Assembly: GCA_017634555.1 (NCBI GenBank)
Contig: JAGBNF010000025.1
Coordinates: 1 to 42,882, forward strand
Direction of reading: 5' to 3'
DNA: 42,882 nt
DNA from: Eubacterium sp.
GTDB lineage: Bacteria > Bacillota > Clostridia > Lachnospirales > Lachnospiraceae
In this document: positions 12,510 to 24,818 of the stretch, one piece after another
Numbering within the stretch: the first letter of the stretch is position 1
Layout: every line of letters starts with the position of its first letter
Translations under genes and position numbers: made by a program
The notes under the pieces: model-generated
The model's database searches: none
What the model was told of the DNA's origin: nothing
Seen by the model: the letters and a program-made list of their open reading frames with translations, nothing else

Positions 12510-13682
12510 TTATACGCGAGCAATTCCTGATCTTTTTGCTTCTTCAGCAACTTCCTTTGCTACTGCAGGAGCTACACGATCATCAAACGGATTAGGGATA
12601 ATGTAATCTTCATTTAATTCTTCATCTGTTACGATTGAAGCGATAGCCTTAGCTGCTGCAACCTTCATAGGCTCTGTAATACCTGTTGCTCTTGCATCAA
12701 GTGCTCCTCTGAAGATTCCAGGGAATACAAGTACGTTGTTGATCTGGTTAGGGAAATCTGAACGTCCTGTTGCAACGATTCTTGCTCCGCCTGCCTTAGC
12801 TTCATCCGGCATGATTTCCGGTGTAGGATTTGCCATAGCGAAGATGATAGGATCCTTAGCCATTGACTCAACCATTTCCTTTGTCATGATTCCGGGAGCC
12901 GATACACCGATGAATACATCCTTACCCTTTATAACGTCAGCAAGTGTTCCTGCTTCCTTATTCTTGTTTGTTACTGCTGCTATTGCCTGCTTTGCAGGAT
13001 TGAGTCTTGGGTCACCGTCAACAAGTGCACCCTTGCTGTCTACAAGGATTACATCCTTAGCACCGAATCTCTGGAAAAGCTTGCAGATTGAAATGCCCGC
13101 AGAACCTGCACCACTTATTACGATGCTGATATCTTCCCACTTCTTTCCTACGATCTTAAGAGCATTTGTAAGTCCTGCTGTACAAACGATGGCAGTACCG
13201 TGCTGATCATCATGGAATACAGGGATATCAAGCTCCTTCTTAAGTCTCTCCTCTACTTCGAAGCATCTTGGTGCTGAGATATCCTCAAGGTTGATTCCAC
13301 CAAATGACGGAGCGATTCTCTTAACTGTTTCAACGATTTCATCTACGTCCTTTGTGTCAAGGCAAATAGGGAATGCATCCACATTTCCGAATCTCTTGAA
13401 AAGTACTGACTTACCTTCCATTACAGGGATTGCAGCGAGAGGTCCGATATCACCAAGACCGAGAACTGCAGTTCCGTCAGATACTACAGCAACTGTATTC
13501 TGCTTAAGTGTATACTTATAAGCATCATCAGGATTGTTGTGAATTTCGATACAAGGCTGTGCAACACCAGGTGTGTATGCTGTTGAAAGATCATCCTTAT
13601 TCTCAAGCGGACACTTGAGAGCAATCTCCATCTTACCCTTGTTTTCCTCATGAAGCTTCAAACTCATCTCATTGTAATTCAT
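12510..13682 (-). CDS. Malic enzyme (NAD(P)-dependent, decarboxylating)
   Basis: This 390-residue enzyme oxidatively decarboxylates malate to pyruvate and CO2, making NAD(P)H. It is the short bacterial form without a phosphotransacetylase tail. Visible motifs are 'LSTAYTPGVAQPC' (catalytic tyrosine region), 'SVLFKRFGNVDAFPICLDTK' (catalytic lysine region), 'NLEDISAPRCFEVEERL' and 'VFHDDQHGTAIV' (metal ligands), and the dinucleotide fold 'VISGAGSAGISICKLF'. Cofactor preference is not assigned. The start ATG at 13680-13682 is preceded by GAAGGAA; an earlier in-frame start at 13727 lacks one. A promoter at 13762-13790 with a palindrome at its start point precedes it. It is probably monocistronic. 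Confidence 0.93.
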   Translation of the reverse strand: MNYNEMSLKLHEENKGKMEIALKCPLENKDDLSTAYTPGVAQPCIEIHNNPDDAYKYTLKQNTVAVVSDGTAVLGLGDIGPLAAIPVMEGKSVLFKRFGNVDAFPICLDTKDVDEIVETVKRIAPSFGGINLEDISAPRCFEVEERLKKELDIPVFHDDQHGTAIVCTAGLTNALKIVGKKWEDISIVISGAGSAGISICKLFQRFGAKDVILVDSKGALVDGDPRLNPAKQAIAAVTNKNKEAGTLADVIKGKDVFIGVSAPGIMTKEMVESMAKDPIIFAMANPTPEIMPDEAKAGGARIVATGRSDFPNQINNVLVFPGIFRGALDARATGITEPMKVAAAKAIASIVTDEELNEDYIIPNPFDDRVAPAVAKEVAEEAKRSGIARV

Positions 13683-13742
13683 AATTTTTTCCTTCTTTCC
13701 TTGAAAACTTGTATTTACACCGGCCAATGCATCAGCAAACCG

Positions 13743-14622: not shown

Positions 14623-14662
14623 GCTAATCCCCCAAATACATGTTACATATATATCTAAGATA

Positions 14663-14839
14663 TGTCTAAGATAGACGGATTGCTCCGTTGCTGCGCAACT
14701 CTCGCAATCCTGAACGCATTCGGATTCCGCTGATTTGCTTACACAAATCGCTCCATCCTCATGCTTTCTTGCATCGTTAACTCATGCGATTTTTCCTGCA
14801 AGCAGGAAATCGCCCGAGTTTCGATGCTTATCTTAGACA
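14663..14839. repeat. 177-bp structured element with 11-bp terminal inverted repeats, overlapping the jetC stop
   Basis: TGTCTAAGATA (14663-14673) and TATCTTAGACA (14829-14839) are perfect inverted repeats bounding a segment full of smaller hairpins: GATTGC/GCAATC around GTTGC-TGC-GCAAC (14678 onward), GATTTG/CAAATC, and TTTCCTGC-aa-GCAGGAAA near 14800. The right end overlaps the stop codon of jetC (14833-14835), so the last codons of that gene are supplied by the element's end. Another TATCTAAGATA-like copy of the arm lies just outside at 14651-14661. It looks like a miniature transposable element or recurrent intergenic repeat. Confidence 0.65.
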
Positions 14840-17800
14840 AAGTCAAACGTCTGCTGCTCATAATCAAGCTGTATATACTCGAGTTCTTCGGTGTCGGTCT
14901 TGCTGCTGTAATTTACAACAACTGTTGTCGAACGCTTACCTGTCTTCTGCTGTCCGAGTATATAGTTTATATCAAATCTTCCCGTGATCTCCGGTGTAGC
15001 ACCTCTGGTAGGAACTACAAGCTGTACGAAGTTTTCCTGAAGCAGCCTGAAGATAGGCTCCCATATGTAGATGTCCTTCGCAGCACCGAACGGATTATCG
15101 ATGAAGAGGGTCTTCGTTCTCTTCTGTCCGTCACCTGCCGAATACATTCCGGAAATGTAATTGATAACCGATATCAGGAACTGTATATAAATACCCTGTG
15201 ACTGTCCCGTACTACCTACAGCCTCTTCATACTTCAGATAGCGGCTCTGCTCCTTGATACGCTCTCTCTTATAAAGTGAAAGCTTTATCCTGTTCATATC
15301 AGTTACGATAACACTGAACAGCTTCTTCATGGAAAGGCTCTGATTCAGGAACTTCTGCCTCTCGCTTTCCGAACTCTTCTTATCAAGCTCTGCAACAACC
15401 CTATCTATATATTCAGACATTCTGTCCTTCATGAATTCATCCTTCACATAAGGAATTGATAGTCTGATCATTTCTATCGCTTCATCACCGAGACTTATCT
15501 CTGACAGATGCTGGAGCTTTCCGAGCTCTGTCTTAACATCGAGACATCTCTCTATACACTGATCTATAAAGCTCTCACGGAGCTTCTCCATACTTGTAAG
15601 TCCGGTCTCGATTCTTTCCTTCTCAAGTGTGATAAGCTCAGCTTCGGAGTTAAGCTTCTTAAGAAGCTCGTCTGCCTCTCTTCTCGTAGACGGAAGCTCA
15701 ACCTCATCTCTTATAGAGTTTGCAAGCTGAAATGCACCGACTGCCTGAAGCGAATCGACAACCATCATCTTAACCTTCAGTGTATCATTTTTAATTCTGT
15801 CTATATTCTTATTTGTTCTGTCATAATCAAGCAGAAGATCATCGAAAAGACTTCTCAGATCAACCTCCTGTCCGAGCACCTCTGCACCCGACGTATCTAT
15901 AGCTTCCTTCTCTGTGATACGTCCCGCATATCTCATCAGCTCTTCACTGTCGTTGATTCTGCGTCTGAAGCTCTTCAGCTTCTTATCAGCATCGGCGATT
16001 CGAGACTCCATTTCCTTCAGATCATTTTCTCTGTGAAGGAGTTCCTTCTCATAATCCAGATTCTCAGGAAGCTCTATATCCTCACCGTACTTATCATGAA
16101 GTGCCTTCTCTGCATATTCAAGCTTACCGATGATTCTCTCGAATTCCGTCCTTGATGCAGCGTGAAGCTCAGCCTTTCCCTTTCTCTCCTCCGACAGTCT
16201 CATGATCTCGGAATTGATGCTGATAAGCTCCGATTCCGGTGTCTTGAAAAGCCGGCCCGCATTTGCCTTTTCTTCAAGTACTGACCATTCGATATTTTTA
16301 TCTCCAATAGACTTTTCAAGTCTTCTCACACTATCGGAAAGTGTATCTCTCAGAAGCTTTTCCTTTTCTCTTGAGAAAATGTCTTCGTCACCCTTAGACG
16401 ATTGTCTATCGAACAGTGACATCAGCTCTGTGAGTGTCATATTAAGATCAGGTCTTACCATATCGGTATAGTAAACCGAATACTTCTTATCCCAGTTGAA
16501 GTCCATCTCTTTTACTTCATCCCGTATGGCATTGTTCATTGCTTCAAGGTCTGCTGTTTCGGATAAGATTTTCTTCAGCTTCATCTCATTAGAGGAAAGT
16601 GCCTGCTCGGTACTATCCTTTGAAGACTTAAGCTCTGAGGTCTCTCTTGTAAGATTTCTTTCCTCTTCTGCTATCTCTGCCATTTTACGAAGTATGGCTA
16701 TATCTGCATCGATGATCTCCAGCTGCTTTTCGGCTTCATGAAGCTTTCCTTCGGTCTCTTCCTTTCCGGAGAGAATACGTCTTTCCTTCTCCTCCGCCTC
16801 AAGAAGACTGTCACCTACAGTGCGCAGCTGCTTTTCATTTTCTTTTATTCTTTCTTCAAGGGTATCATATCCCTTTCCGATATATATTTCAGCAAATGCA
16901 AGATCGGCCTGCTTTGTTGAAAGCATATCCTGAACCGCTCTTTTTTCTTCATTCAGAGTTCTGAGGTTCTCTCTCTCAAGATTTGCAAGACGGCTCACAT
17001 TTTCCTCATCGGTAAAGTAATCGCTGTTACGTCTCACCGCGAATACATTTTCCCCGATAATGTTATGTGCGGAATCTATGCTCTCCTTATCGTAGAGCAT
17101 TACCTCTGTTGAAGTTTCAATCTCTCCCAGTCCCGGATCTGCAGTTATTCCTGCCAGATCATCGACTATGATTCCATACGGAAGTGAAGGATTGACCTTC
17201 AGCAGCTCTGCACTCTTTTCGCTTCCCAGTGCTGAAAGATAATCCATTCCGGATATGGCACTGTGACTGTGTCTCGTGATTATATATTCCCTGACCTTCT
17301 CGATATCATCAGACCTCTTCAGGATAACGCCCATCTCTATATCCTTAAGACGTTTCTCTGAAAGCTCTGCAGCCTTGCCAGTCTCATGAACTCTGATATA
17401 GTCCTTTCTGATTGCAGACTGGATCATATCAGCCAGCTTCTCTATAGACTGACTGTCTCCCTCATAATCATCTGCCATACCATATATACCTGCCAGACTC
17501 TTCAGTCTTCCGGCTTCCTCGCGCTGCTTATCGATATTAAGCTTAAAGCCCGCTTCATTCTCCTTAAGTATCGCTTCCTTCTGCTCAAGCAGCTGCTTCT
17601 CTCCTGTCAGCTGTTCAAGGAGTGCAGATACTCTTTCCATCTCAGCTCTGCCGGACTCTATACCCGAAAGAATCGAAGCTCTCTTTTTTGCTGCCTCATC
17701 CAGCAGCTCTCGCGGCGGAAGAAGCTTTCTTTCAGATAGTCCGCTTCCCAGCTCCTCAGTCTTCTTGAGACATTCTGCATACTTCTCATCTCTATCCCGG

Positions 17801-19284
17801 AGCTTACTTTCGATAACCGCAAGATTCTGAACAGCAGCATCACGAAGTCTTTCTACAGACTCCTTCTCCTCTGACATCCTTGCTATCCTGTTGGCAATCT
17901 TATGCTCCTTCTCGGATAACTCGGCATTCTTCTCTTCCATGCGGAGCTTGATGTTATAAGCTATGCATTCTCTGTCGATCTTTCCCTCTGAATCGGACTG
18001 AGTTGCACGTCTTTCCTCTTCAAGTGAGGCAAGCTTTTCTCTGGCATCAAGAAGATCGATATACTCGCCTGCTGCGATTCTCTCATTGAGCTCCTTTTTC
18101 TTTTCTTCGATGAGCTCATTTATAGCATTGAGCGCTTCCTCAAGCAGCTTGGCCTTCTTCTCAGCCTCATCTCTTTCCTTCTTTGTGATTCCGATCTTCA
18201 GCTGCTGGATTTCTTGATTGATCCTGTCAGAACCTGTCGAAAGCTCACTGAGCTCCTTCTCAAGCTTTTCCAGCTCCTCGTCCGCATTTTTCTTCTCAAG
18301 CTCTATAGTTCTATATATTCCCGCAAATCCACGGGCAGTCTTTTCCTTTTCTCTGAAGAGCTCTTCAAATGTACCGATCCTGTCACTGAGCAGCTGAACC
18401 AGCTCCTTCTCATGATCATAATCGGCAATTCTCTTCTTCTTTTCAGCAAGAGTCTTGAGCTCCTCCTGAATGGTCATAAGAAGGCTTGCCGTATTTCCGG
18501 AATTGCCCGAAGCTGCAGCTGTCTTTACTGCATATGCCTTCTCGATTATCTCCTCGATAAGAAGATCCTCGATGACCTTTCTCGTAGTCCTGAAGTTCGT
18601 TTCGAAATAAGTTCTAACATGACCCTCAGTACGGTTGATTCCTCTTATCAGCTCCCACTGGCTCTCATAGAGTCCGTAGTCTGCGATAAATCTCTGATAC
18701 TCACCCTTCCTGTCAAACACCTTAACGATAATGTTCTTATCCGTTCTGGCAAGATCCAGAAGGTAATTCTTGAGTCCCTTATATGTAATTCTCTCCTCAC
18801 CCTTTACAAGCGGGAGATTGATAATATCGTTCTTGTTGTAATCTCTATAGAAAATGCAGTAATTGAAATACTCTATCTCCGCAGTGGTCTTCTCTTCACC
18901 GCTGCCTGCATCCTCCTCAGCGACGCCCTCGATCATAACCTGATCCGCGTCCTTTCCGCTGCCTGCCTTCTTTGCCGCAAAGCCCGTTGTCATGTAACGC
19001 AGACCCTCGGTGATATCACAATCATCCAGTTTCCACTCAATAAGCGAATGGATACAGGTATTATCATTTCCTCTGAAAAGCTTCTCTATAGGCTGCTTAT
19101 CATCAAGGGTGGAATTCGGGATAACGCACTGCATCAGAAGCAGCATGAGTACAGATTTACCACCACCGTTCGCAAGGTCATACAGGGTGTTTCTGCCGTA
19201 CATTTTCATGATGAAATCATCATAGCTCTGTGTACCGAAATTATATTTAACGTTGTTTACTCTGATTCTGTTTATATTAGGCAT
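14833..19284 (-). CDS. jetC: JetC-like SMC/MukB-type ATPase of a Wadjet/Mks system
   Basis: At 1483 residues it has nearly the length of MukB. An N-terminal ABC half has Walker A 'LANGGGKSVLML' (37-48). Long coiled coils follow (about 300-620 and 790-1340) around a hinge-like middle (about 640-780). The C-terminal half has a divergent signature 'GSTGQSQGIYIQF' (from 1357) and Walker B 'TLFIDNPFG' (1392-1400). The Walker B aspartate is Asp1396, but the next residue is Asn where most ABC/SMC proteins have the catalytic Glu; this may be normal for the subgroup. JetC with the kleisin JetA and JetB forms a DNA loop extruder that recognises small circular DNA. The start overlaps jetB by 8 bases with AAAAGGA upstream. 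The stop codon is formed inside a repeat element. Confidence 0.88.
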   Translation of the reverse strand: MPNINRIRVNNVKYNFGTQSYDDFIMKMYGRNTLYDLANGGGKSVLMLLLMQCVIPNSTLDDKQPIEKLFRGNDNTCIHSLIEWKLDDCDITEGLRYMTTGFAAKKAGSGKDADQVMIEGVAEEDAGSGEEKTTAEIEYFNYCIFYRDYNKNDIINLPLVKGEERITYKGLKNYLLDLARTDKNIIVKVFDRKGEYQRFIADYGLYESQWELIRGINRTEGHVRTYFETNFRTTRKVIEDLLIEEIIEKAYAVKTAAASGNSGNTASLLMTIQEELKTLAEKKKRIADYDHEKELVQLLSDRIGTFEELFREKEKTARGFAGIYRTIELEKKNADEELEKLEKELSELSTGSDRINQEIQQLKIGITKKERDEAEKKAKLLEEALNAINELIEEKKKELNERIAAGEYIDLLDAREKLASLEEERRATQSDSEGKIDRECIAYNIKLRMEEKNAELSEKEHKIANRIARMSEEKESVERLRDAAVQNLAVIESKLRDRDEKYAECLKKTEELGSGLSERKLLPPRELLDEAAKKRASILSGIESGRAEMERVSALLEQLTGEKQLLEQKEAILKENEAGFKLNIDKQREEAGRLKSLAGIYGMADDYEGDSQSIEKLADMIQSAIRKDYIRVHETGKAAELSEKRLKDIEMGVILKRSDDIEKVREYIITRHSHSAISGMDYLSALGSEKSAELLKVNPSLPYGIIVDDLAGITADPGLGEIETSTEVMLYDKESIDSAHNIIGENVFAVRRNSDYFTDEENVSRLANLERENLRTLNEEKRAVQDMLSTKQADLAFAEIYIGKGYDTLEERIKENEKQLRTVGDSLLEAEEKERRILSGKEETEGKLHEAEKQLEIIDADIAILRKMAEIAEEERNLTRETSELKSSKDSTEQALSSNEMKLKKILSETADLEAMNNAIRDEVKEMDFNWDKKYSVYYTDMVRPDLNMTLTELMSLFDRQSSKGDEDIFSREKEKLLRDTLSDSVRRLEKSIGDKNIEWSVLEEKANAGRLFKTPESELISINSEIMRLSEERKGKAELHAASRTEFERIIGKLEYAEKALHDKYGEDIELPENLDYEKELLHRENDLKEMESRIADADKKLKSFRRRINDSEELMRYAGRITEKEAIDTSGAEVLGQEVDLRSLFDDLLLDYDRTNKNIDRIKNDTLKVKMMVVDSLQAVGAFQLANSIRDEVELPSTRREADELLKKLNSEAELITLEKERIETGLTSMEKLRESFIDQCIERCLDVKTELGKLQHLSEISLGDEAIEMIRLSIPYVKDEFMKDRMSEYIDRVVAELDKKSSESERQKFLNQSLSMKKLFSVIVTDMNRIKLSLYKRERIKEQSRYLKYEEAVGSTGQSQGIYIQFLISVINYISGMYSAGDGQKRTKTLFIDNPFGAAKDIYIWEPIFRLLQENFVQLVVPTRGATPEITGRFDINYILGQQKTGKRSTTVVVNYSSKTDTEELEYIQLDYEQQTFDFV

Positions 19285-19987
19285 TGTCCTTTTCCTGCTC
19301 CAGATATTCCTGTATCAGGCTCCTGTTTTCCTCAAAATAATTCTCTGCCAGTGCATGCATCCTATCCGTCGGATAGAAGCGGTCGTCCACATTTACAAAA
19401 AGCTTTTCCGAAATAAGGAAGTTGAAGGTCAGCTTCGTCATTCCGTATCTCGAACCACGCGACGCCTTATTTCTGTCCCTGTCCTCATTCAGGAAAGGTG
19501 GAAGTCCCTCCCAAAGTGAAGCTATGGACTTAAAGCTGTTCTCTGTATGATCCTCAGCTATGGCAGCATCTCCAAGAACCTTTCTCAGATCCTGCGTTAC
19601 ACTGTTGATCACCTCGTCAACTCTAACATACTCTCTTACCTGATATGTATCCGAAGATTTATAGAAATAAAGGAGCGCATGGTAGGTAATGAAGAACGCG
19701 AGGTAAAGCTCCACATTTAACCTGAGGCCGAGTATACGCTTCAGTTCATCATTCGTATAACCGAAAACCTTGTTGCCGCTTCCCGCAGTTACAAAGAGGG
19801 ATTCGTTATACTCATAGATTGAAAGTCCCTGCCTCGCCAGGATCTTCGTTGTAATATCATATACCTCGGAATCCGAATAGAACTCGTTATACAGCTCTGC
19901 GGTTGCCTTATCCTTTAGAGATATGCTCTGTCCGGTTATTAATGCGCTGTAAATATCCAGCGCCTTGTTCAGACTTCTGTCCTCCAT
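19277..19987 (-). CDS. jetB: JetB-like (DUF6063, MukE/KITE-type) subunit
   Basis: This 236-residue cytosolic protein without membrane segments matches the DUF6063 family found between JetA and JetC in clostridial Wadjet-type loci. Winged-helix-like stretches occur at about 25-60 ('ELYNEFYSDSEVYDITTKIL') and at the C-terminus ('GMTKLTFNFLISEKLF', about 183-198). Its role by analogy with MukE/MksE is to bridge the kleisin and the SMC ATPase. It begins 2 bases after the jetA stop with GAGAGGA as ribosome binding site, and its end overlaps jetC by 8 bases, so the three proteins are made together. The subtype assignment rests on family memory and gene order. Confidence 0.8.
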   Translation of the reverse strand: MEDRSLNKALDIYSALITGQSISLKDKATAELYNEFYSDSEVYDITTKILARQGLSIYEYNESLFVTAGSGNKVFGYTNDELKRILGLRLNVELYLAFFITYHALLYFYKSSDTYQVREYVRVDEVINSVTQDLRKVLGDAAIAEDHTENSFKSIASLWEGLPPFLNEDRDRNKASRGSRYGMTKLTFNFLISEKLFVNVDDRFYPTDRMHALAENYFEENRSLIQEYLEQEKDNA

Positions 19988-19989
19988 CT

Positions 19990-21495
19990 CTACATCCTCT
20001 CAAATGTTATATCCGTAACGGACGATTCCTCTATCGCCACCTCTTCGTCACCGAAGACCAGTCGGAATCTGATATCCGCAAATCTTTCCTTGTCCGTATC
20101 CGACATGTACTTAACAGCCAGCTCCTCCAGGAAGGTCTCCTGCTGTTCGAGCATTCCTCTTATGCTGTAGTTATCTTTTTCAGATAAATGTACCAGATAC
20201 GCAAAGTAGTCTCTGTTCTTATATATATCACCGGTAAACTTCATCTCAAGAATAGCATTGTATTCTCTGAGAGTAAGCTTGTCCCACTTCTCAAGTCTTT
20301 CAAGCAGTTCTCTGAAGAGCATTGCAAAGTTTCTTCCCGTCTGCTCCGAAAGTATCTCATCCTCATATCTGAAACTGAGATCTGCCACCTGATGCTCAAC
20401 CTTCTCAGTCACATCATCCTGATTTATCTTCTTCAGAACTATCGAATCGATCATCGATATCTGGAAGCTCTTCTCACATTTCGGTGTAAGAAGGGGACTG
20501 ATAAGTGCAGCCAGTCTGTCCGGTGCATCAACTTTCTCAAGTGAACTGAGTGCTTCCTCGAAGTCAAATGTATTCCTCAGAATCTGCATCTTCTTCCTGC
20601 TTACCATCTCATCGGCAAAACGTGACAGTTCAGCGGAGGCCTTGATCAATCGGCTGTGATTATCTATAGCCTGCTTAAGCAGTGTCTCAAGTCTGGTTAT
20701 ATCCCTTACCGCTTTTCCGTTCGAGCTTCTGTCGAGCCTTGATGCAGCCTTATCAACCAGTTCACGGCTCTTCGTAAAGGATTTACGTTCCTCCTCGAAC
20801 CATCTTGATGTACTTGCCATAAAGTCGTCTACCGCTGCTGTACCGGCATGTACATCCGAAAGAAGAAGTGCCACTGCCTCATCTCTCTTCTTATGAAGTG
20901 ATGAAACCTCGAGATTGATACGGCTTATTACATCTATACCGCCGGAATAGTTCTCAGCCTTGATCAGCTTTTCAAGAAGCAGCTGATCGGTACTGATGCG
21001 GCTCTCATCCTTCATCTCCTTGGTTGAAAGATAGAACTCGATTCCTTCCTCGGTTATCGAGTAGGTAACCTCGGATTCATGCACATTTGCCTCGATAAGT
21101 CTTACTCTTATAATCTTCGTCTTCCTGTCAGCCGGATCGAAGAAGCTTATCTCAAATGCTTTCCCGCCGTTCGTCAGCTTATCGAAGATACTATCTGTCA
21201 GGTTCTCCATCTCGCTCTTCGACATCGTAAGCTCATAGTCACGGGTCAGTATCTCCGCAAGAAATCTGCGTACCTCCGGACGGGTAACCTCACGCTCGTT
21301 GAAGTTATTCTCGTTTATGAGATACCTGAGAACAGCAAGTGTTATATAGCCCATATCTATGGCCACATCCCCACTCTCCGAGGGCGCACTTATCCCCGAC
21401 TGCAGTATACTGAAGAAAGGATAAAACTTTCTCAGATTAAGCATTCGCTCAGTGTGATTTTTAATTATGTCGTTAGTCAGAATATACTTTTCCAT
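19990..21495 (-). CDS. jetA: JetA-like (DUF5716) kleisin subunit of a Wadjet/Mks system
   Basis: This 501-residue protein matches the JetA/DUF5716 family, the MukF/MksF-like kleisin. It has an N-terminal winged-helix part ('RKFYPFFSILQSG', 'YITLAVLRYLI', about 22-65), 'TYSITEEGIEFYLSTKEM' (about 144-161), a helical middle (about 170-300) and a C-terminal winged-helix part ('LTLREYNAILEMKFTGDIY', about 411-429). It is the first gene of the three-gene operon. Only 70 bases separate the start from the adhesin terminator, and no strong promoter is seen there (a weak TTGTGG/TATAGT pair). The ribosome binding site is poor (CGGATT), which suggests low expression. Function is inferred from family and operon. 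Confidence 0.83.
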   Translation of the reverse strand: MEKYILTNDIIKNHTERMLNLRKFYPFFSILQSGISAPSESGDVAIDMGYITLAVLRYLINENNFNEREVTRPEVRRFLAEILTRDYELTMSKSEMENLTDSIFDKLTNGGKAFEISFFDPADRKTKIIRVRLIEANVHESEVTYSITEEGIEFYLSTKEMKDESRISTDQLLLEKLIKAENYSGGIDVISRINLEVSSLHKKRDEAVALLLSDVHAGTAAVDDFMASTSRWFEEERKSFTKSRELVDKAASRLDRSSNGKAVRDITRLETLLKQAIDNHSRLIKASAELSRFADEMVSRKKMQILRNTFDFEEALSSLEKVDAPDRLAALISPLLTPKCEKSFQISMIDSIVLKKINQDDVTEKVEHQVADLSFRYEDEILSEQTGRNFAMLFRELLERLEKWDKLTLREYNAILEMKFTGDIYKNRDYFAYLVHLSEKDNYSIRGMLEQQETFLEELAVKYMSDTDKERFADIRFRLVFGDEEVAIEESSVTDITFERM

Positions 21496-21565
21496 AATCC
21501 GTTATATTTTACTATAAAATGGCCTGTAATACCACAAAAACATGTATCAGAAACACCGTATCATA

Positions 21566-21599
21566 TATAAAAACACCCCGGAGATAAAACTCTCCGGGG
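21566..21599 (-). terminator. Rho-independent terminator of the adhesin gene
   Basis: CCCCGGAGA (21576-21584) and TCTCCGGGG (21591-21599) form a perfect 9-bp stem with a 6-base loop. On the minus strand it is followed by TGTTTTTAT. It lies 43 bases after the adhesin stop codon and separates it from the jet operon. Confidence 0.85.
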
Positions 21600-21641
21600 C
21601 ATTTCCCACACTTTTTCAAATATATGTATTAATCATTAATC

Positions 21642-24600
21642 CTATCTTCTTCTTTTAACGAAGAACCAGAATCCGATATACATCAATGATATTACTGCAA
21701 GTACAGCCATTATAGCCATCATTCCGCCAAATGTATCACCTGTCTTTGCGTTTGAATCAACCTTCTTTGTCTCAACAGTTGCATTACTTGTAGTCTTCTT
21801 GTTGTCATCAACAACAACCTTTGAAGGTGTCTCAGTTGTTACTTCTGTTGTGTCACTCTCCTCAGTTGTAGGAGCTGTAGGTGTTGTAACTGTCGGTGTT
21901 GTTGGATCTGTCGGCTCTGTAGGCTCCGTTGGCTCCGTCGGCTCTGTTGGTTCCGTTGGATCTGTCGGCTCTGTAGGCTCCGTTGGCTCCGTAGGTTCCG
22001 TTGGCTCTGTCGGCTCTGTAGGCTCCGTCGGCTCTGTTGGTTCCGTTGGCTCCGTCGGCTCTGTAGGCTCTGTCGGATCTGTCGGATTTGTCGGCTCCGT
22101 TGGATCTGTTGGATTTGTCGGATCTGTAGGTGACGCCGGATCTGTCGGTGATGCCGGATCTGTCGGTGTTGCCGGGTCTGTCGGCTGTGTAGGCTGTATC
22201 TTAACCGTCTCATAATTATTTGTTACAGTCACCTTGGTTCCGTTCTTATCAAGCGTTACCGCTCCTGCATCGTTGCTTACATATGTATATCCATCTATTG
22301 TAACATCATCTGTCTTTTCAATTACCGTGTAGCTCTTCTCTGCTTCAATATCCGCAAAGATTGCTGACTGACTTGTTGTTACACTCTTATATACTGCTGT
22401 CTGATCATCTGCTGTGAAGCCTGTTCCGTCGAAGTAATTTCCGTTCTCATCCTTCAGAGTAAACTCAAAACTCTTATCTGTTGAGATATCAGCTCCGTTC
22501 TCATCCTTAACTGCCTTAGAAACTTCTAGAGCAGCCTTCTCGATTACCGGCTTCTTCTCGTTTGCTATATATACAGCGAGGCTTGCCTTATCACTTGTTA
22601 CAGTCTCAACGTTGTAAGTCTTTCCTTCATATGTAACGCTCTCTCGAGCAGTTGTTCCTGCATTCAGGAACTCATAGAAATGTACTTCATTACTCTGCTT
22701 ATAATCATCAGGTGCCTTTGTTTCCTGAATCATATATACAGTATCTCTTTCAAGTCCGCCAAATGATACCTCACCATCAGCAAGTGTTGTGGCTGACTTA
22801 ACCTTTTCAAACTTTTCTGTATTATTCTCAACAGTCAGCTTTGAAAGTGTAAACTCAGCACCCTCAAGAAGCTGTGTTGTTGAATCCTTGTCATGCTTGA
22901 TAACCTTGATAGTACCAAGGTCAGGAGTTGTCTGTGATGACGAGCTTGCAGCACTGTCGTGTATCTCTCCTCTGAATCTCATATCATCAGATGCAAGGCT
23001 CTTATTCTTTGAGAATAATTCAACAGCATTCCAGTTATTTGTATCATCAAAGTATGAATGAGCAGTAAGATTTACAGTTACTTCATACGTAATGATATAT
23101 GACTTAGCATCCTCAAGCTTGAATGTCAACTTACGTGTTGTCGGGTCATATGTAAATGTACCCTCAGCAGGTGTCTGCTTATTTATCTTTACAGATGATA
23201 TAACAAGATCAAATGAAGGACACATAGTATCTTCCAATGTGAGTTCATCTGCATTCGGATCAAGATCAAGAGAATCAGGATTAACCTTGATCGTATATCC
23301 CGCATTCGGTGCAGTATCTACATCATAATCACCGATCTTCGCCAGAGTCTCCGGCTTCTTATATCTTCTTGCTGTCTGTGTTTTCATCGGATTAGTTCCG
23401 TCAAACCAGATTTCAGCTGCATTCTTATAATCAAAAGAATCTGTATCCTGTCTGATGATCTTTGTACGATACATGATCCTTATCAGAGAACCATCCTTAT
23501 CGTTATGATCCTCAAGGTACTTTATCAGTTCAGGACTGAAGTTAAAGTATGCAATGTTCTTTCCGTCTTCTACTTTTGTTTCAACACTGACTGCATTAGG
23601 AAGTACATTATAATGATTATATACTTCCTCTGCCTGTACAGACTCGATAACAACCTCTGTATTATCAGGAAGAATATCCTTTACATAACCTTTATCATAA
23701 TGCTTATCAAGTCCGTAAAGAACTATCATCCAGCCAAGCTCACCCGGCTGATCGTATTCAGGAGCACTCCACTTATTGAAGGCTGCTCTGAGTGTATGAA
23801 TATCGTCCCAGCTGTCTACATACTTAGGTACTTCATTACTCTTTACACCCGCAACATTCGGAATACGTCCTTCATAGCTGCTTGGATAGTAATTTTCAAA
23901 ATGGTTGTTACTTATATACTTATTGGCTGAATCCCAACCATACATATCAGGCTCAACCTTAACATTATACTTTACATATATCTTTTCGCCGTCAGCAAGC
24001 TCGTTAATTATAATTCCGATCTCTCTGTCTTCGGCAAGTGTCACTCTGTAATCGTCGCTACCGAGTGGTACTGTACAAGCCGAATCCGAATACACCTTTA
24101 CATCTGAGCAAAGTGACATTCCCGGATACATTGAATCATAAAAATCAAGATCAGTATTGTCATTAACAGCTTCAATGGCAATTATACATTCATAAATGTC
24201 ATCTGATGGTCTCTGACGACTATTTGTAAATCTCTTATCAATCTTAAGCTCTGTTTCAACAGGTCTCGGAACTGTATGAATTGTAAATTCCACAGCATCC
24301 GGGAAGCTTATCTTTACATCATCTTCAGGCTTATCAGGGTTCGGCGCACTCCATATATTTCCCGAAAATGTAAGCTGTCCCGATCTTGTATTGTCTCTTG
24401 CACAGAAGTTTTCATCTGTGTAACGGATAGAGATAACATTATTCACTATAGAATACTTTCCTATCTCCGTATTCTTGTTCATGACAGGTCTGTTTTCCAC
24501 ATTTGTAAATGTGATCTCTTTTGGCAGCTGGTAAGTAAAAGTATCAGCTGTTGTGAACTTCAGATCATCATCAAAAGCCCACTTCATTTCAAAAAGAAGG

Positions 24601-24818
24601 CTGTCACCGTGAGTAACGGTTTTGTTTCCTTCCAGAAGGTTCTCACCGGTCTTCTTGTCAATTGCACTGACAATTTCCATTGTGGCATTCTCGTTGAGAA
24701 CCATTGTGTTTCCGGCAGCTCTGACTACTGTGTAATTTCCGCTTCCGAGACACGAAAATACAATAGAAAAAGCCAGCAGAAACGTCAGAATCCTTTTCGT
24801 GATTCTTCTCTGCTTCAT
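21642..24818 (-). CDS. Cell-wall-anchored adhesin with Cna-like domains and a Thr-Pro-Glu stalk
   Basis: This 1058-residue surface protein has a signal peptide (about 1-35) and an N-terminal adhesin region of the Cna/clumping-factor type (about 36-620, with 'QLTFSGNIWSAPNPD'). A SpaA/CnaB-like domain follows ('GTIKVIKHDKDSTTQLLEGA', with 'MIQETKAPDDY'), then a second isopeptide-type domain from 'ALEVSKAVKDENGADI' to 'YTVIEKTDDV'. A low-complexity PT(E/D) stalk spans about 868-980. The C-terminus has NAKTGD (about 1023-1028), a hydrophobic helix and KRRR, a variant of the LPXTG signal. The pilus class B sortase recognises IPTG-like motifs, so a separate housekeeping sortase, not in this window, probably anchors it. 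GGGAG precedes the ATG; it has its own promoter and terminator. The ligand is unknown. Confidence 0.85.
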   Translation of the reverse strand: MKQRRITKRILTFLLAFSIVFSCLGSGNYTVVRAAGNTMVLNENATMEIVSAIDKKTGENLLEGNKTVTHGDSLLFEMKWAFDDDLKFTTADTFTYQLPKEITFTNVENRPVMNKNTEIGKYSIVNNVISIRYTDENFCARDNTRSGQLTFSGNIWSAPNPDKPEDDVKISFPDAVEFTIHTVPRPVETELKIDKRFTNSRQRPSDDIYECIIAIEAVNDNTDLDFYDSMYPGMSLCSDVKVYSDSACTVPLGSDDYRVTLAEDREIGIIINELADGEKIYVKYNVKVEPDMYGWDSANKYISNNHFENYYPSSYEGRIPNVAGVKSNEVPKYVDSWDDIHTLRAAFNKWSAPEYDQPGELGWMIVLYGLDKHYDKGYVKDILPDNTEVVIESVQAEEVYNHYNVLPNAVSVETKVEDGKNIAYFNFSPELIKYLEDHNDKDGSLIRIMYRTKIIRQDTDSFDYKNAAEIWFDGTNPMKTQTARRYKKPETLAKIGDYDVDTAPNAGYTIKVNPDSLDLDPNADELTLEDTMCPSFDLVISSVKINKQTPAEGTFTYDPTTRKLTFKLEDAKSYIITYEVTVNLTAHSYFDDTNNWNAVELFSKNKSLASDDMRFRGEIHDSAASSSSQTTPDLGTIKVIKHDKDSTTQLLEGAEFTLSKLTVENNTEKFEKVKSATTLADGEVSFGGLERDTVYMIQETKAPDDYKQSNEVHFYEFLNAGTTARESVTYEGKTYNVETVTSDKASLAVYIANEKKPVIEKAALEVSKAVKDENGADISTDKSFEFTLKDENGNYFDGTGFTADDQTAVYKSVTTSQSAIFADIEAEKSYTVIEKTDDVTIDGYTYVSNDAGAVTLDKNGTKVTVTNNYETVKIQPTQPTDPATPTDPASPTDPASPTDPTNPTDPTEPTNPTDPTEPTEPTEPTEPTEPTEPTEPTEPTEPTEPTEPTEPTDPTEPTEPTEPTEPTEPTDPTTPTVTTPTAPTTEESDTTEVTTETPSKVVVDDNKKTTSNATVETKKVDSNAKTGDTFGGMMAIMAVLAVISLMYIGFWFFVKRRR
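21896..22192. repeat. Low-complexity 9/18-bp tandem repeats encoding the Pro-Thr-Glu stalk
   Basis: Units of the type GGCTCTGTAGGCTCCGTT repeat more than 15 times and encode (T-E-P)n and (T-D-P)n. Third positions vary, so the array has drifted while keeping the protein pattern. Arrays like this change length by slippage and would vary the distance of the adhesin head from the wall. The opposite strand is open by chance. Confidence 0.85.

Follow-up and report, generated by a model that had tools for sequence, protein, structure and literature searches.

A jetD-less type III Wadjet core inherited with the chromosome in Lachnospiraceae, probably a condensin of MksBEF type

Wadjet type III (JetABCD) is an anti-plasmid system in which the structural maintenance of chromosomes (SMC) ATPase JetC, the kleisin-type subunit JetA and the KITE-type subunit JetB are accompanied by the nuclease JetD. 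The same three-subunit core is found in Wadjet type I, i.e. MksBEFG of Corynebacterium glutamicum, which retains the nuclease MksG and targets plasmids from the cell poles (PMC10123090, part covered), while MksBEF of Pseudomonas aeruginosa is an SMC-kleisin-KITE operon without a nuclease. MukBEF, another KITE-type SMC complex, apparently replaced Smc-ScpAB (PMC10586767, part covered). Here we describe a jetABC locus that lacks jetD, located in a 42,882-nucleotide stretch of Eubacterium sp., family Lachnospiraceae (contig JAGBNF010000025.1, positions 1 to 42,882; the whole stretch is hereafter the window). It probably stems from a type III Wadjet SMC complex which, after a single loss of the nuclease, turned into an MksBEF-like chromosomal condensin; its descent is supported by computation, while its function would follow by inference.

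The three subunits of the window are homologous to those of Wadjet type III over their full length and are encoded in the same order, A-B-C. Unlike type III, however, the locus has no jetD upstream of jetA, and its relatives form a separate branch that was found in our samples only in this family and that follows the phylogeny of RpoB. The likeness to P. aeruginosa MksBEF is one of composition: the window complex falls within the type III sequence families and comes from a different phylum, and no MksBEF sequence is included in the trees below. MukBEF is matched by the structural model of JetB, but the genomes carrying the jetD-less core keep ScpB.

Identification of the subunits is based on near full-length matches to the PADLOC models JetA3, JetB3 and JetC3, which lie in this order on the minus strand of the window between positions 14833 and 21495 (Table 1), and the coordinates and three-subunit identity given in the original prediction are thereby borne out. 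The three genes had been described as overlapping, which is true of jetB and jetC (8 nt) but not of jetA and jetB, which are spaced by 2 nt. Likewise, the assignment of JetB to DUF6063 was recovered by Pfam, whereas the proposed assignment of JetA to DUF5716 was not, as Pfam returned no family at E <= 0.01 for either JetA or JetC. The predicted structure of JetB (mean predicted local distance difference test, pLDDT, 84.8) had as its top Foldseek matches JetB of Escherichia coli (8as8) and of P. aeruginosa (8dk1), followed by MukE (E-values 8e-5 to 8e-4 for the top matches; 3.6e-4 in the comparison with MukE), so that by its model JetB has a KITE fold. Profile searches against the chains of solved structures gave no match for JetC at E <= 0.001 and similarly nothing useful for JetA.

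Because type III jetD sits upstream of jetA, the upstream flank, not the downstream one, was the place to look for it. It was found directly upstream of jetA in 41 of 42 loci collected as JetD-bearing or as having a weaker JetA match, the remaining one (L139; we use L for loci and G for genomes) being cut by a contig end. These 42 loci comprise six from the family (L074-L077, found via JetA, and L101 and L102, found via JetD) and 36 from the phylum (L106-L141, in 35 genomes). The original prediction was thus correct that no jetD follows jetC, but missed that in type III systems the gene lies on the other side. Upstream of the window jetA, a six-frame search with the JetD3 profile found neither jetD nor a remnant of it, and a gene for a SpaA-domain protein occupies this place instead. 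The same search returned nothing from anywhere in the window at E <= 10, and only chance-level matches from the window and 42 jetD-less loci together (best E 0.32 among 15342 stretches), compared with 1.7e-94 or better for nine jetD-bearing control loci, which are inside the training set of the profile and hence not independent. The flank upstream of jetA is shorter than 1 kb in four of the 42 jetD-less loci (L004, L005, L048 and L052). In two of these (L048 and L052) the contig ends less than 200 bp upstream of jetA and absence of jetD rests on whole-genome JetD3 searches, which gave no match in the genome of L048 (G180) and a single one, in a separate complete operon, in that of L052 (G151); for L004 and L005 the absence is covered by the short flanks alone. 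The whole-genome profile search for JetD that had been proposed for the window's own genome was negative with both models, JetD_C (PF09983) giving no match at E <= 10 and JetD3 (PDLC00592) none at E <= 1. As this assembly is 71.85% complete, its lack of jetD is by itself weak evidence; a genome of the same genus that is 99% complete (G160) contains jetA, jetB, jetC and ScpB, and no match to JetD_C or JetD3.

To place the locus among its relatives we searched 200 genomes of the Lachnospiraceae and 398 genomes of the phylum. The JetA profile matched 35 of the family genomes, 31 of them strongly (E below 1e-100) and four weakly, and the two classes differ in their association with jetD: it lies directly upstream of jetA in all four weakly matching genomes, while JetD_C was absent from the jetA contig in all 31 strongly matching ones. 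In the phylum sample the strong form was restricted to three genomes (G000, G180 and G595), all members of the family, and the other 36 loci, in 35 genomes, have jetD upstream except for the one cut by a contig end. The genomes with the jetD-less core thus number 32 (the 31 of the family sample and one from the phylum survey), and no adjacent jetD was seen in any of them. By profile, all 32 contain jetA and jetB and 30 contain jetC, the contig ending too early in the other two (G002 and G197). In one locus (L050, G188) a 303-aa open reading frame (ORF) is inserted between jetA and jetB of an otherwise compact operon. ScpB was detected in 189 of the 200 family genomes. Of the 31 core genomes among them 30 have it, the sole exception being the incomplete assembly of the window.

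JetD homologues do occur elsewhere in some of these genomes. JetD_C is present in 65 of the 200 family genomes, including nine of the 31 with the strong JetA (the other 22 had no match at E <= 0.01). Seven of these nine adjoin an apparent jetABC of their own (L101 and L102 confirmed by profile; L097, L098, L100, L103 and L104 by size and reading); of the remaining two, L099 is a fragment of 110 aa and L096 is truncated by the end of its contig. The occurrence of JetD is unlinked to that of the jetD-less core (9/31 genomes with the core versus 56/169 without, p = 0.84). A true type III JetD, as judged by the JetD3 model, was found in two of the 31 (G151 and G174), both times in a separate complete operon, so that a full type III jetDABC (L101 and L102 respectively) and a jetD-less core are carried side by side in one genome. 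The JetA profile search missed these two operons, and family loci of this kind are therefore undercounted. Weak partial JetD3 matches (E 1e-5 to 0.13) appeared in ten further core genomes, none on the jetA contig and six of them at or near JetD_C hits.

Phylogenetic analysis separates the jetD-less and jetD-bearing forms completely. A single branch with maximal support (100 in the Shimodaira-Hasegawa-like approximate likelihood ratio test) divides 37 jetD-less from 41 jetD-bearing sequences in the JetA tree (78 rows), and 36 from 37 in the JetC tree (73 rows); near-duplicates (L003, L005, L007 and L009) and fragments (L011, L071 and L139) were excluded from both trees, and pieces below 1250 aa from the latter. 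In the JetA tree, L106-L110 and L127 are the jetD-bearing sequences that lie closest to the jetD-less side. Within the jetD-less group the complex follows the chromosome. Among 26 genomes, RpoB shared 19 of 23 splits with JetC (Mantel r 0.815) and 19 of 23 with JetA (r 0.800), with none of 2000 permutations as high in either case, and JetA and JetC, with 19 of 23 splits in common, agree no better with each other than either does with RpoB. (RpoB was searched in 30 genomes, giving 27 usable stretches, 26 of them with JetC, which leaves six of the 32 core genomes out of this comparison.) Mapped onto an RpoB tree that combines 27 positive with 30 negative genomes, presence of the core requires 10 changes against a mean of 19.3 for shuffled states (0/500 as low); the 30 negatives were hand-picked from 169, are mostly the more complete genomes, and include one with an extreme branch (G043). 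The simplest account of this distribution is ancestral presence followed by repeated loss. We conclude that the core has been passed down with the chromosome and that the absence of jetD is old and clade-wide, not the single recent deletion in one strain that the original prediction had allowed for. Neither such a deletion nor a JetD homologue elsewhere under shared control, the two findings that would have refuted that prediction, was encountered.

The genes themselves are under purifying selection. Ratios of nonsynonymous to synonymous substitution rates (dN/dS) between the window and the close relative L001 were 0.054 for JetA, 0.031 for JetB and 0.075 for JetC, and those of the three genes against L003 and L008 ranged from 0.039 to 0.134; because dS approaches saturation in several of the pairs, all such values are rough. 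Searches of 72,556 plasmid records and 50,697 phage records with the window JetA gave no match at E <= 1e-5. The synteny survey that the original prediction proposed shows neighbourhoods that are recurrent and chromosomal: recR lies upstream of jetA in 11 of the 42 jetD-less loci, in most cases accompanied by dnaX and ybaB (names assigned by reading), and a radical S-adenosylmethionine (radical-SAM) gene plus malic enzyme lie downstream in 13, while no neighbour is common to all 42.

The ATPase motifs of JetC are likewise maintained. The window protein has the Walker A motif NGGGKS, the signature GSTGQSQG and the Walker B motif FIDNPFG; the Walker A lysine is present in all 36 jetD-less JetC rows, and the signature is invariant in the 35 that cover the site. 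SMC ATPases usually have Asp-Glu in Walker B. Type III JetC has Asp-Asn here (residues 1396-1397 of the window protein) in every sequence covering the site, whether encoded with jetD (37) or without it (35). A change of the signature from SGGE to STGQ was entertained as a mark of nuclease loss and rejected, because the jetD-bearing JetC of L108 already has STGQ; the jetD-bearing L106, L107 and L110 carry SEGQ. Columns conserved in jetD-bearing rows and rare in jetD-less ones number two in JetA, one in JetB and none in JetC, and since the jetD-bearing rows are far more diverse we draw no conclusion from them on the loss of residues that dock JetD.

Downstream of jetC, the order of a radical-SAM relative and then malic enzyme is as originally described, and the former had been put forward as the nearest candidate for a different effector of a defence system. 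It begins 210 bp past jetC and contains no cysteine. The intervening gap (14623-14832) contains sequence that by eye resembles an inverted repeat, and the same gap measures -1 to 248 bp in relatives. The gene adjoins jetC in five of the 28 family core genomes with a visible downstream gene, and follows jetC in eight further loci from the genome_contigs collection. Of the 200 family genomes, 62 have a strong orthologue (E <= 1e-95), at similar frequency with and without JetABC (12/31 versus 50/169, Fisher p = 0.40). Of the 12, five are next to jetC, four are on another contig while a different gene is visible downstream of jetC (G014, G127, G166 and G182), and three are on another contig while that of jetC ends too early to judge (G002, G115 and G197). 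The CxxxCxxC motif is intact in five of the 13 jetC-linked copies and lost in eight (window, L001-L005, L008 and L051); because the latter group together in the JetA tree, one loss of the cysteines suffices. The protein without iron-sulphur cysteines is still under strong purifying selection (dN/dS 0.042 against L001, compared with 0.029 for malic enzyme and 0.029 for the ORF beyond it, which we take to encode a MoxR-type ATPase). In the window lineage it is a conserved, apparently non-catalytic radical-SAM relative. It probably stands outside the complex, and there is nothing to connect it with what JetABC does.

In other lineages a long tetratricopeptide repeat (TPR) protein is encoded after jetC, sometimes past one ORF, in 19 of the 42 jetD-less loci (L052, L054-L060, L062-L070, L072 and L073). 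It has N-terminal TPR repeats and, by reading, a middle part that is acidic and of low complexity, followed by a C-terminus resembling AAA proteins. As a dedicated partner of JetABC it was rejected as not specific, its profile matching 196 of the 200 family genomes (E <= 1e-5), some of these matches being generic TPR hits. In 18 JetABC-negative loci, recR was absent from the stretch examined. On the other side of the window operon, the spacer between the SpaA-domain gene and jetA is 146 bp long and contains a stem noticed by eye (fold z -4.74) that is absent from the terminator-scan listing.

Table 1. Features of the jetABC locus and its surroundings in the window
Feature	Coordinates	Strand	Evidence and remarks
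jetA (kleisin-type subunit), type III, 501 aa	19990..21495	-	First gene of the operon; PADLOC JetA3 PDLC00560 1e-170, residues 2-501
jetB (KITE-type subunit, DUF6063), 236 aa	19277..19987	-	PADLOC JetB3 9.3e-87; Pfam DUF6063 4.3e-41
jetC (SMC ATPase), 1483 aa	14833..19284	-	PADLOC JetC3 PDLC00581, full length, E=0, 1465 bits
Cysteine-free radical-SAM relative (PA0069/Rv2578c-like), 284 aa	13768..14622	-	NCBIfam NF033668 1.2e-17, under its cut-off
Malic enzyme, conserved neighbour outside the complex	12510..13727	-	Pfam malic 1.1e-33, Malic_M 9.5e-30
Spacer between SpaA-domain gene and jetA (site of jetD in type III)	21496..21641	-	Strong GC stem then T run, terminator-like
Large SpaA-domain surface protein with long Pro-Thr-Glu-rich repeat stretch	21642-24818		Adjoins jetA upstream

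Several explanations of such a locus have to be weighed. The original prediction left it open whether the locus is a housekeeping condensin or a defence system that uses a different effector. The former is supported: jetD is absent throughout the clade, the core is inherited vertically and kept under purifying selection, and it co-occurs with ScpB. That the radical-SAM or TPR neighbour, or an unlinked nuclease, stands in for JetD is suggested by the 13 loci in which the radical-SAM gene follows jetC and the 19 with the TPR protein; neither gene, however, is linked to the core in its occurrence, no neighbour is shared by all loci, and the cysteine motif of jetC-linked radical-SAM copies is kept in some and lost in others, making a replaced effector quite unlikely. 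JetD might also be supplied in trans by another Wadjet operon, or be encoded in the unassembled part of the window genome. The incompleteness of that assembly, the JetD_C homologues of nine core genomes (two with a type III JetD) and weak partial JetD3 matches in four genomes without JetD_C (G015, G025, G067 and G106; E 3e-4 to 0.08) would fit this, but JetD is not enriched with the core, 22 of 31 core genomes have no JetD_C match, and neither model matches the nearly complete G160, so that we regard a JetD supplied in this way as very unlikely.

Smc5/6 silences extrachromosomal viral DNA, and JetABC might somewhat similarly provide immunity without a nuclease, recognizing small circular DNA by its total extrusion and then silencing, sequestering or missegregating it. 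The patchy presence of the core, its homology to Wadjet and the purifying selection on its subunits are all compatible with such a role, and the part of PMC10586767 covered here gives JetABC the role of sensor and mentions Smc5/6 in the context of anti-viral immunity. Descent like that of RpoB, recurrent neighbourhoods and the lack of plasmid or phage matches are nevertheless unlike most defence systems, and on balance we think nuclease-free immunity unlikely. Finally, the loss of the nuclease itself, the patchy presence and one split jetA could be signs of a decaying defence remnant, a reading that selection already largely contradicts (dN/dS 0.03-0.13), as do the single open frame of jetA in 30 of the 31 family genomes, the invariant JetC signature and the occurrence of the Walker B asparagine in jetD-bearing JetC as well; decay is extremely unlikely.

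A number of observations count against the reading that we prefer, that of a condensin derived from type III Wadjet. With asparagine at the position of the usual Walker B glutamate, ATP hydrolysis is not assured by the motif. The structural model of JetA (pLDDT 83.4, predicted template modelling score 0.42) matches kleisins non-significantly, with MukF at rank 33 (E 0.022) and E. coli JetA at rank 48 (E 0.049), under unrelated CorA helices. The trees come from quick searches without bootstrap, have no proven root, and carry warnings for long branches (JetA) and uneven amino-acid composition (48 of the 73 JetC rows). Without a root, the loss of jetD, as opposed to its never having been present, is inferred because jetD occurs across the other type III branches and JetD models exist for types I and II. 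The patchy presence (31/200) indicates that the core is dispensable in most lineages and also fits an accessory or defence role; that many losses have to be assumed is a real point against an essential one. In one genome (G197) jetA is broken across two frames. Lastly, coexistence with Smc-ScpAB was tested through ScpB only; the presence of this marker in nearly all core genomes suggests that the core is probably a second condensin.

Taken together, computation supports the identity of the genes, the absence of jetD, the origin of all jetD-less cores in one clade, their vertical descent under purifying selection and their co-occurrence with ScpB, while ATP hydrolysis, loop extrusion (assumed from the family) and a chromosomal role would be expected of the condensin that we favour. 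Its ancestor would have been a type III Wadjet system that lost the JetD nuclease once, before the core-carrying lineages of the family diverged, with JetABC then being inherited with the chromosome. JetC dimers together with JetA and JetB would be loaded onto DNA, where loops would be extruded or compacted at the expense of ATP, and these may serve chromosome organization or segregation, as a second, MksBEF-like condensin beside Smc-ScpAB. Without JetD, plasmids that are extruded would not be cut by the known Wadjet mechanism. We class the locus as a derivative of Wadjet type III that has no nuclease and do not count it as a Wadjet system.

Among literature titles and the beginnings of abstracts, a scope that left subscription papers and preprints mostly outside, we found no jetD-less type III JetABC in Lachnospiraceae, and the covered parts of PMC8565338 and PMC10512200 make no mention of such a clade. 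In one source, as far as covered, the only distant MksBEF homologues named are those of B. longum and T. muris. A survey of the Bacillota is, in the part covered, centred on jetD (PMC12287153) and would as such miss a clade that lacks it. The relaxed classes of PADLOC ask for just two defence genes (PMC8565338, part covered), and tools that match JetA, JetB and JetC models may call a Wadjet system even though the nuclease is absent.

The clade provides a vertically inherited, nuclease-less example in which a transition from defence to condensin is directly testable. Since the nearest relatives still hold jetD, this transition can be traced in the tree and the complex compared with and without its nuclease in related bacteria, and the two genomes that carry both a jetD-less core and a full jetDABC (G151 and G174) are useful for testing cross-talk between them. 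For the family as a whole, the evidence leans towards Lachnospiraceae carrying a distinct chromosomal condensin, derived from an anti-plasmid system of type III through one ancient nuclease loss, which would be an additional case of the domestication of an immune SMC complex.

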